From contig PKXU01000198.1 of the NCBI GenBank assembly GCA_003132445.1, positions 1 through 64,000 on the forward strand: a stretch of 64,000 nucleotides of DNA, in the 5' to 3' direction. Positions 14,687-38,252 of this stretch are shown here, piece by piece. Each line of letters opens with the position of its first letter. Position 1 is the stretch's first letter. The stretch is from Acidobacteriaceae bacterium. GTDB taxonomy: Bacteria > Acidobacteriota > Terriglobia > Terriglobales > Acidobacteriaceae. Below the pieces are notes generated by a model that was given only the letters and a program-made list of their open reading frames with translations, ran no database searches and was not told where the DNA came from. Position numbers and translations under genes: made by a program.

Positions 14687-14896
14687 ATCTGCGGGTCGGT
14701 TTGAATTTGTCGGCCGATAGTTCGGAGTCATCCTGAGTGCCGCCGTTTTTCAGGCGGAACGAAGAGCTTGCCCTGAGATGAAGTCGAAGGGATCTCCCAC
14801 TAGTCGTATTTATGGGAGATTCCTCACGCGGCTGAAGTACGCCGCGCTTCGGGATGACGTCCTCGTAGGAAGATAAATTGAAACTGAGCCACTGCC
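14687..14896 (-). repeat. Copy of the foldback (MITE-like) element, inverse orientation, diverged
   Basis: This copy shares the core of the element at 34297-34480 in opposite orientation, with the tracts TTTGAATTT.TCGGCCGATAG, GTCATCCTGAGTGC.GCCGTTTTTCAGGCGGAACGAAG, GGGAGAT.CCTCACGCGGCTGAAGTACGCCGCGCTTCGGGATGAC and CCTCGTAGGA. Its right end is AAACTGAGCCACTGCC (terminal repeat intact). The left end (GCGGGTCGGTTTGAATTT) has drifted. It carries an extra insertion, gcttgccctgagatgaagtcgaaggg. No flanking duplication is visible. It occupies most of the 407-bp gene-free space between tRNA-Arg and kdpC; I see nothing else there. Confidence 0.75.
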
Positions 14897-28412: not shown

Positions 28413-28570
28413 TCCCAGGTTTTTCAGGCGGGCGACGAAAAATCCGCGCGGCTTGGGTATTGTAGCTGAGACTCAGCTTGCGCTTATTGATCAACTGGGG
28501 GCTGATGGCAATGAGAACTGACCGACGCATGCGAAAAAGTATCGCGCGAATTTCGAGACCGCATTTCGCG

Positions 28571-28678
28571 GGGTCATCCTGACGGAGCCGTTTTTCAGGC
28601 GGAGGAAGGATCTCATCGAGGCACGAACTTCGCACGGGAGATCCTCACCCGGCTTACTGCGCCGAGTGCGGAATGACC
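28571..28678. repeat. Core-only copy of the foldback element
   Basis: GGGTCATCCTGA..GAGCCGTTTTTCAGGCGGA.GAAGGATCTC and GGGAGATCCTCACCCGGCTTACTGCGCCGAGTGCGGAATGACC match the inner part of the 34297-34480 element. The outer terminal repeats (GTGGCTCA..) are absent. It fills the middle of the 345-bp gap between the NrfD fusion gene and the MFS gene; nothing else is evident there apart from a weak TACAAT near 28747. Confidence 0.65.
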
Positions 28679-32756: not shown

Positions 32757-34223
32757 TTAAGCGCGCGCGAAGTCAATGTATCCCTTTTGCACGTCGGTAC
32801 GAATTAATTTGACGCGCAATTTATCGCCAACGTCGAGTCCTTGCGCGCCTTGCGCCAGCAATCCTTCCAGGCGTGGCTGGGAGACGCGGACGAAAGTTCC
32901 ATGCTCGGTCGCTCCGGTCACGATCGCGTCGAATACTTCGCCGATGCGGTGCTGCATGGCAATCGCCGCCAGGCGCTTGGCCATGTCCCGCTCAACTTTT
33001 TTGGCTGCATCTTCTTTTTGCGTGCAGTTGGCCGCAATGGCCGTCAGTTCTGCATCGGAGTAAGGATTCTTCTGGGCTGCGAGCGTGGCCTTAATCAGGC
33101 GTTGAGTAACCATGTCGACAAAACGACGGTTCGGCGCTGTCGAGTGCGTGTAATCCTGGACCGCCAGACCGAAGTGTCCGGGGGCAACTTCGCCGGGACG
33201 TTCGAGAACATACTCGCCGGGTCCGATGAGTTTAATCACTGCGAGAGAAAGATCCGCGAAATGATCGGGATCCGCGGCTTGGCGGCGCAGCAGAAAATCG
33301 TTGAGAGCCTTGGAGTCGGGCTGGGCGGGGAGCTTATCGCCTTTGGTCGCGGCCAACTGCACAATGCGGTCCCAGCGCTTGGGGGTGCGCACGATGCGAC
33401 GCATGGATGAAACGTCCTCAAGCATACGGGCTACAACGCCGTTGGCGGCAACCATGAAGTCTTCGATCAATTCCGTGGCGAGGTTCTTCTGCTGTTTCAC
33501 CACGTCGACAACCTGACCGTTCAACATTAAAGGCTGGAGTTCGTCGCTCTCCAGGGTGAGCGCCCCGTGCTGGAAGCGCTGGTTTCTCAACTTCTGTGCG
33601 ACTTCTTCCTGCAATTTCAATTGCGCCTGCAGATCGCTGGACGACGCGATCTTCGGCGGCGCGGCCGATTTCCCTTCCAGCCATACGCCCGACGAGTTGT
33701 ATTGCAGTTGAGCTTTGTTGCGGACAACGGCGCGATACACGCTGGGCGATTTCAGGCTGCCACTGGGATCGACCACGAATTCAATCACGACGCTTAGACA
33801 GTCCTGATTTTCAAGAAGAGAAGTCAGTCCCGTGGATAGTTCTTCTGGCAGCATGGGGAAGTTGCGAACTCCGGCATAAACAGTTGTAGTTTCGCGCGCT
33901 GCGTGTTGATCGATGGCAGTGTTCTTGGGGACGAAGGCGTCGACGTCGGCAATGCCGATCATGATCTTTACATCGCCATTGGGCAGGCTTTCGGCGACTT
34001 CGATCTGATCGAGATCGCGCGAAGTGTCGTTGTCTATGGACGACCAGAGCAGATTGCGCAGATCCCGAATATCGCTGGTGGGGCCGACTTTCGGCGGATG
34101 ATTTTTAAGTTCTGCAACCTGCTGCAATGCTTGCGAAGGAAACTCAGGCTGAAAACCACGCTGCTGCATGACTTCTTTTGCTGTGGCTTGCAGATCAGGA
34201 TGCGAAGGATTGGCGTCGTGCAT
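32757..34223 (-). CDS. RNB-domain (RNase II/R-like) ribonuclease, short form
   Basis: A 488-residue 3'-5' exoribonuclease. The RNB active site is present: SIDNDTSRDLDQIEVAE contains the metal-binding Asp cluster, followed by IMIGIADVDAFVPKNTAIDQHA, PMLPEELSTGLTSL and the late HFGLAVQDYTHSTAPNRRFVDMVTQRL. An S1-like beta barrel ends the protein (IGEVFDAIVTGATEHGTFVRVSQPRLEGLL). It lacks the N-terminal cold-shock domains of RNase II and R, which explains the smaller size. The ATG follows a GGGGG run closely. The start is preceded by the MITE-like element at 34297. Confidence 0.9.
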   Translation of the reverse strand: MHDANPSHPDLQATAKEVMQQRGFQPEFPSQALQQVAELKNHPPKVGPTSDIRDLRNLLWSSIDNDTSRDLDQIEVAESLPNGDVKIMIGIADVDAFVPKNTAIDQHAARETTTVYAGVRNFPMLPEELSTGLTSLLENQDCLSVVIEFVVDPSGSLKSPSVYRAVVRNKAQLQYNSSGVWLEGKSAAPPKIASSSDLQAQLKLQEEVAQKLRNQRFQHGALTLESDELQPLMLNGQVVDVVKQQKNLATELIEDFMVAANGVVARMLEDVSSMRRIVRTPKRWDRIVQLAATKGDKLPAQPDSKALNDFLLRRQAADPDHFADLSLAVIKLIGPGEYVLERPGEVAPGHFGLAVQDYTHSTAPNRRFVDMVTQRLIKATLAAQKNPYSDAELTAIAANCTQKEDAAKKVERDMAKRLAAIAMQHRIGEVFDAIVTGATEHGTFVRVSQPRLEGLLAQGAQGLDVGDKLRVKLIRTDVQKGYIDFARA

Positions 34224-34296
34224 GAACCCCCGTTGCGATAGTGAGATAGGTCAGGCTACCACGCGAACCATAAGGCGAGCGGGGATGTGGTACGAG

Positions 34297-34480
34297 GGTA
34301 GTGGCTCAGTTTTAATTTATTCTCCTACGAGGCGGTCATCCCGAAGCGCGGCGTACTTCAGCCGCGTGAGGGATCTCCCATAGATATAACCGATGGGAGA
34401 TCCTTCGTTCCGCCTGAAAAACGGCTGCACTCAGGATGACCCCGAGCTATCGGCCGAAAAATTCAAATTGAGCCACCACC
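34297..34480. mobile_element. MITE-like foldback element with terminal inverted repeats and 8-bp target duplication
   Basis: The left end GGTAGTGGCTCAGTTTTAATTT and the reverse complement of the right end GGTGGTGGCTCAATTTGAATTT differ at 3 of 22 positions. Directly outside, GGTACGAG occurs at 34289-34296 and again at 34481-34488, an exact 8-bp direct repeat as left by transposition. Inside are nested inverted repeats: GGTCATCC/GGATGACC (34334-34341 and 34434-34441) and GGATCTCCCAT/ATGGGAGATCC (34371-34381 and 34393-34403). No coding capacity is seen in 184 bp. Confidence 0.8.
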
Positions 34481-34514
34481 GGTACGAGAGTTGTGAAAAG
34501 AGGCCTGCACAGGT

Positions 34515-35018
34515 CTAGCTGCCGTGGAGACGCTCGATGTCGGCATTCGTATAGACGCGCGTGGCGTGGGGCGCGTGCGATTTCCAGAACGACGCAGTTT
34601 GACCGAGAGTGACTCCATAGCCGCGTTCGCGCAGCGACTGCACATTGGTCATTCCCCCAACGCCTGTGTCGACGATGCTCGGAGGCAGCTCTTTGGGCTC
34701 GGTAGAGACGAGTTCGATCACGCTGGGCATCGGATAACCGTAATAGATCGGGAGCAGATCGGGCTGGTTCTGAGGTTCCGGACTTGGGACGTAGGGCTGA
34801 TCGTCAACAACCGGTCCGATTTGGGGAAGGCTTGGAATGGGGGATAGTGGAGCGTCGAGCGAAAGGGTGGGCGGGACAATGGGCCGGGCCAGCACAGGCG
34901 AACCGGTCAATAAGTATTGCGGGCCGACGGGAAAGTTCGTGTCCTGGGCGGCGCTGATCCCGGTGCTAGCAGTGAGAACAAAAATTAACATTAACAACGA
35001 CAGACTGGCGAGACGCAT
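34515..35018 (-). CDS. Secreted proline-rich protein of unknown function
   Basis: A 167-residue protein with a clear signal peptide (LASLSLLMLIFVLTASTGISAAQ) and a Pro-rich mature part (VARPIVPPTLSLDAPLSPIPSLPQIGPVVDD..PSPEPQNQPDLLPIYYGYPMPSVIEL). A more folded C-terminus follows (GVGGMTNVQSLRERGYGVTLGQTASFWKSHAPHATRVYTNADIERLHG). GAGGAGG stands seven bases before the ATG. I do not recognise the family; it would be periplasmic or attached outside. Confidence 0.7.
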   Translation of the reverse strand: MRLASLSLLMLIFVLTASTGISAAQDTNFPVGPQYLLTGSPVLARPIVPPTLSLDAPLSPIPSLPQIGPVVDDQPYVPSPEPQNQPDLLPIYYGYPMPSVIELVSTEPKELPPSIVDTGVGGMTNVQSLRERGYGVTLGQTASFWKSHAPHATRVYTNADIERLHGS

Positions 35019-38056: not shown

Positions 38057-38130
38057 GGGATTGCGCCGCGGGTAAAAGCTAATAGGATTGACAGCTTACA
38101 GGAAGAAAGTCAAGCGCGGGAGTTTGCGCA

Positions 38131-38252
38131 GTGGCTGAATTTGAATGTTCGGCCGATAGTTCGGTGTCGTCCAGAGCGCAGCCATTTTTCAGGCGGAACG
38201 AAGTGCTGTCGAGCTGCGCTCGACGGACAGCCGAGGGCGGCTCTCCCCACAT
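38131..38252. repeat. Chimeric repeat: half of the foldback element joined to an R2 hairpin repeat
   Basis: 38131-38203 (GTGGCTGAATTTGAATGTTCGGCCGATAG..GCCATTTTTCAGGCGGAACGAAG) matches the right half of the 34297-34480 element read on the other strand. At about 38204 the match stops and 38210-38252 (GAGCTGCGCTCGACGGACAGCCGAGGGCGGCTCTCCCCACAT) is the R2 family in reverse orientation. It lies between the DHH gene and the first zinc-ribbon gene. Confidence 0.7.

Follow-up and report, generated by a model that had tools for sequence, protein, structure and literature searches.

Insertion sequences of the IS1 family have ends with a GGnnnTG tip and duplicate 8-10 bp of their target. ISAba3-like ends consist of a 24-bp terminal inverted repeat (TIR), GGTGGTGTTTCAAAAAGTATGCTG, accompanied by an 8-bp target-site duplication (TSD; PMC6382973). 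Short, non-coding elements that carry the TIRs of a full insertion sequence and are mobilised in trans, here called MITEs, are described in other families, as with MITEAba12, whose duplications are of 9 bp (PMC6382973), and SM3A/SMN1 of Sulfolobus (PMC3718332). REP sequences are another class of repeats, usually handled separately from MITEs. Published CGTC-tagged REPs have stems of 8-9 bp and loops of 4-5 nt; they are mostly dimeric, apparently have no dedicated transposase, and are listed for five phyla, without Acidobacteria (PMC3733652).

In the 64,000-nucleotide stretch of DNA analysed here (the window), MITE and REP are nested within one mobile unit. This unit, of 184 bp, is a MITE, and it represents a new IS1-type family with a REP dimer as its core. 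With MITEAba12 (PMC6382973) and SM3A/SMN1 (PMC3718332), it shares its small size, the absence of coding sequence, the TIRs of a full insertion sequence and, as we infer here, mobilisation in trans; unlike it, these elements belong to other families, and no genome-wide REP dimer is reported as their core. In the literature searched, which does not cover most subscription journals, no IS1-type MITE built around a REP came up. The unit would be a hitch-hiking mobile element of soil acidobacteria, the genus being presumably Sulfotelmatobacter, for which the open literature searched contains nothing on insertion sequences or MITEs.

The 184-bp unit and its copies

The unit is non-coding, occupies positions 34297-34480 and is abutted on either side by GGTACGAG, exactly as the initial annotation had placed it. 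Its TIRs are 22 nt long, with 19/22 positions paired (86% complementary). The nested perfect inverted repeats and the foldback noted at the same time were also located: one repeat is of 11 bp (GGATCTCCCAT, 34371-34381, with ATGGGAGATCC, 34393-34403), the other of 8 bp (GGTCATCC, 34334-34341, with GGATGACC, 34434-34441), and the predicted fold of the whole unit reaches -86.6 kcal/mol (z = -7.9 against shuffles). No Rfam family matched the 184 bp. The unit is intergenic. On one side it lies 66 bp upstream of the start of a gene (34223..32757, minus strand) which we take to be ribonuclease-II-like, a name that is a reading of the sequence with no family search behind it; on the other, it lies downstream of the gene at 35018..34515 (minus strand). 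The parts of the unit are listed in Table 1, together with further copies in the window and the main full-length elements discussed below.

Table 1. Parts of the unit, related copies in the window (window coordinates) and full-length elements of other contigs
Feature	Position	Strand	Observation
Left target-site duplication GGTACGAG	34289..34296	.	exact 8 bp
Left terminal inverted repeat GGTAGTGGCTCAGTTTTAATTT, IS1-type tip GGTAGTG	34297..34318	+	matches IS1-family element ends
Left subterminal spacer	34319..34333	.	common to the family in the alignment
REP-like unit B (GGTCATCCCGAAGCGCGGCGTACTTCAGCCGCGTGAGGGATCTCCC)	34334..34379	+	solo TIR-less copies in own genome, e.g. L027, L029
Short loop separating the REP units	34380..34392	.
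REP-like unit A, inverted (GTCATCCTGAGTGCAGCCGTTTTTCAGGCGGAACGAAGGATCTCCCAT)	34393..34441	-	solo TIR-less copies in own genome, e.g. L024-L026, L028, L030
Right subterminal spacer	34442..34458	.	common to the family in the alignment
Right terminal inverted repeat GGTGGTGGCTCAATTTGAATTT	34459..34480	-
Right target-site duplication GGTACGAG	34481..34488	.	exact 8 bp
Second copy, degraded, one end damaged (L009, L047)	14694..14896	-	flanks gatctgcg/aagctgcg, 6/8
Third copy, truncated (L021)	38127..38203	-	one TIR and part of REP unit A
Solo REP-A-like unit	28569..28614	-
L125, full IS1-family element, 2038 bp			TSD ttccggcg, exact
L131, full IS1-family element, 1261 bp			TSD aaagaagc, exact
L138, IS1-family element, matching ends			TSD cagaggaa, exact
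L275, IS1-type transposase element, 3533 bp			TSD gggccccc, exact
L278, 2698 bp, both ends GGTAGTGGCTCAGTTTGAATTTTG, 22/22 identical			TSD ctaatatt, exact

The genome to which the window belongs (5.12 Mb in 203 contigs, 87% complete) was searched with a 200-bp stretch as query. About 20 full or nearly full, diverged copies were found, together with about 20 short matches to the interior. Since the copies are only 72-92% identical, the family is old. None of seven copies checked is spanned by an open frame.

It had been proposed initially that the unit moved as a whole, and that other copies should likewise stand between 8-bp repeats. Both proposals are borne out. Exact duplications flank L001 (ggtacgag) and L014 (agaatttt), that of L015 (cctattct) becomes exact once the element end is shifted by one base, and 7/8 positions agree in L002, L006, L007, L008 and L018. 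In order to avoid choosing ends by their duplications, the ends of 10 own-genome copies were set from the TIR score alone. Mean agreement between their flanks is 0.675 at a length of 8 bp and 0.20-0.39 at lengths of 4-7 and 9-12; at 8 bp, 54 of 80 bases agree against 23.7 expected, a value that none of 20,000 shuffles reached. It is this sharp peak of the flanking duplications that identifies the unit as a MITE. In other genomes, an exact 8-mer flanks 21 of 41 elements with like ends (0.5 expected).

Orthologous sites were considered as well. The neighbouring ribonuclease gene is present in 35/45 same-genus genomes. Where the gene upstream of it is also kept, the spacer without the element measures 85 bp (L194), 93 bp (L198) or 146 bp (L190); that of the window is of 296 bp, of which the element plus one duplication make up 192 bp. 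In two further genomes (L186, L187), a lone REP-A unit is found in the upstream spacer of the ribonuclease, where the window has the MITE. A relative lacking the element and still carrying two copies of GGTACGAG would speak against an insertion; the pair is absent from all the element-lacking orthologous spacers examined, which have diverged too far for an empty site to be recovered to the exact base. These element-free spacers agree with an insertion in the lineage of the window.

IS1-type ends and transposases

The GGTRGTG tip resembles that of IS1, and this family was searched for. Using the DDE_Tnp_IS1 profile, divergent IS1-like genes were found in 12/45 same-genus genomes, and a protein search with the product of one IS1-like gene gave relatives in 32/45. 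The transposases score above the cut-off of Pfam DDE_Tnp_IS1 (PF03400) and match NCBIfam transpos_IS1 (NF033558) with E values of 1e-14 to 1e-30. The IS1-like genes of L125, L131, L133, L138, L141 and L144 lie between inverted ends of the type GGTAGTGGGTCAGTTTGAAT, flanked by duplications of exactly matching 8 bp. The window family and the full elements have in common the GGTRGTG tip and the 8-bp duplication that characterise IS1 ends.

More closely, a supported clade of IS1-family DDE transposases, represented both in the genus and beyond it, lies within the same TIR as the unit, GGTAGTGGCTCARTTTGAATTT, and between exact 8-bp duplications; the TIR of the MITE is that of the full transposons L125, L275 and L278. 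One clade (support 98/97) groups the transposases with xTCA(R)TTT-type ends and, along with them, two with GTGCMGTTTG-type ends. Those with TCCTAA-type ends fall apart from it. As compared with the described IS1 family (ISAba3-like; PMC6382973), the tip, the 8-bp duplication and the IS1-type DDE transposase of the full relatives are alike, whereas the 184-bp unit has no transposase and the full relatives here, 1.3-3.5 kb long with a single frame of about 280-320 aa, can hold passengers. For instance, a DNA methyltransferase gene lies beside the IS1-type transposase gene in L278 (2119-3591).

A 241-bp same-genus element (L152) has a TIR of 20/22 and an exact TSD, cggttttc. Between its ends only transposase residues 202-276, that is the last 75, are left, and they are 77% identical to the L125 enzyme. 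These ends, the exact duplication and the residual C-terminus mark it as a deletion derivative of an IS1-type element. Beyond the TIR, no sequence common to the MITE and the full elements was seen.

In the own genome, 87% complete, the search turned up no full element bounded by these ends. Insertion sequences often drop out of metagenome assemblies, so that this absence is weak evidence. The single IS1-like gene of that genome, C50, which sits at a contig edge, was considered as partner and rejected: its intact side carries no such end and it falls outside the clade.

It is very probable that the unit is a non-autonomous IS1-family transposon (MITE) with REP-like cargo, moved in trans by the transposase of a full relative. 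The clade described above is, judging from the shared TIR, the likely source of the ends. In the mechanism that may be envisaged, a full-length relative would encode an IS1-family DDE transposase able to recognise the 22-bp ends of the unit, GGTRGTGGCTCARTTTNAATTT (also written GGTRGTGGCTCARTTT). This transposase would mobilise the unit and join it to staggered target cuts, the repair of which would leave the 8-bp direct duplication. A transposase of the clade would have moved the window MITE in this way, and the movement would date from the time when a full copy was present in the lineage. The REP-like dimer, a genomic repeat also living outside the element, would have become cargo. An orphan acidobacterial repeat is now tied to a named transposase family.

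The REP-like interior and alternative readings

The ends enclose two units of about 46 bp, inverted relative to one another and separated by a few bases. Each also occurs alone in the own genome with no TIR nearby; around the solo units L023-L030, the best TIR score is 11-15/22 vs 20-22 in intact copies. The commonest start of a unit is GG-CGTC-ATCC. In 37/63 units C precedes GTC and ATCC follows, so that the CGTC tag and the AT beginning of the stem are both found. The interior hairpins are longer and imperfect, without the stem of 8-9 bp and loop of 4-5 nt. Because stem and loop sizes differ from those of the published CGTC REP survey, the units are named here REP-like. The resemblance to CGTC REPs and their dimers (PMC3733652) and to REPINs (PMC3116915) resides in the usual CGTC-AT start, the occurrence as singles and inverted dimers, and the lack of a flanking Y1 gene; the units here differ in being longer, more imperfect and set between transposon ends. 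The initial annotation had held the unit to be unlike usual REP-type repeats. This stands for the carrier, which is not a REP, and does not stand for the interior, made of two REP-like units that occur solo.

Given such an interior, the unit might be taken for a REP dimer (REPIN- or BIME-like) moved by a Y1/RAYT transposase, with incidental ends; Y1 transposases are common in the genus, and the two inverted units are indeed also found alone. However, the 8-bp TSDs lie exactly at the outer TIRs, and single-strand Y1 transposition does not generate TSDs. Moreover, the 141 kb surrounding 50 Y1-transposase genes from the genus yielded a single REP match, which leaves the RAYT link unsupported and this reading very unlikely. 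A transposase of another family was also considered: IS1595 members duplicate 8 bp too, and IS1595 transposases exceed the cut-off in 25/31 same-genus genomes. Yet the own genome has none, and IS1595 ends, where locatable, are of the GGSAA-TATATACTTGAC type, not GGTRGTGGCTCA, so that mobilisation by this family is considered highly improbable. One may finally imagine a static family of regulatory or RNA hairpins maintained by selection, with no transposon at all. The strong predicted fold argues in its favour, as does the alignment, where most of the invariant columns fall in the REP interior and not in the TIRs. Against it stand the TSDs and the scattered insertion sites; besides, compensatory change is seen in 2/32 pairs only and the covariation term is unfavourable. 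We regard this as the least credible of the readings.

The reading as an IS1-type MITE with REP-like cargo raises the matter of how far such cargo extends. The same REP cargo is found within other TIR variants of the genus (L112, L055, L238, L146); in L112, the MITE is of 211 bp, with ends GGTAGTGGTGCAGTTTG and the TSD tgaattcg. In a Halioglobus genome, where three full 184-bp MITEs are present, the interior of these recurs without the ends at about 15 further places, whereas a gammaproteobacterium with about 40 full MITE copies gave no clear solo interiors. Pairs of IS1-type ends might thus be a general vehicle for REP-like palindromes, the host's own REP dimer becoming the core of a MITE in several phyla. 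With solo interiors in Halioglobus and no clear ones in the gammaproteobacterium, this idea is held here as rather doubtful. If it were true, IS1-type ends would be a dispersal route for CGTC-type REPs. The survey (PMC3733652) poses the question of how these REPs spread; with a transposable carrier of their dimers, one answer can be put directly to the test.

Distribution and other elements with these ends

Matches to the unit, mostly to its interior, are found in 23/24 same-genus genomes searched. No match came from other genera of the order, and two came from a single genome belonging to a different family of the class. Querying GTDB genomes with the exact TIR returned 50 loci in several phyla. 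Among the named records that contain it is Candidatus Sulfotelmatobacter, Acidobacteriota; two such records, L237 and L239, are identical in contig to the same-genus loci L152 and L055, and from this the window is taken to come from that genus.

Several elements between such ends have other contents. In gammaproteobacterial MAGs, elements of about 1306 bp (L240:2194-3498, L272:3237-4542, L280:2333-3638) are bounded by these IS1-type ends and by duplications of 8 bp, and their sole gene encodes TnpB (OrfB_IS605, Cas12f1-like TNB and HTH_OrfB domains). In L272, the stop codon lies 9 bp from the right end. To our knowledge, TnpB within DDE-type ends is unusual. Other ORFs, without an evident transposase, are found inside these ends in L276:3780-5443 and L273:3913-6317. 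In the window itself, a 433-aa ORF near the start (100-1401) reads like an IS1182-type transposase.

At the other extreme, elements of 33, 37 and 39 bp (L135:569-601, L003:1694-1730 and L283:5395-5433) consist of nothing but two abutting ends. Exact 8-bp duplications flank those of 33 and 37 bp (gcggtttt and ccggtcgc), and a duplication of 6/8 flanks that of 39 bp; these elements are possibly among the smallest transposed units. Finally, in L112:593-2951, the 211-bp MITE adjoins an IS1-type element of 2124 bp in the order TSD-MITE-TSD-IS-TSD, the middle target copy, TGAATTCG, being common to both. The element of L111 is inserted at CGAATTCA, the reverse complement of this target, and such reuse of one target suggests a target preference.
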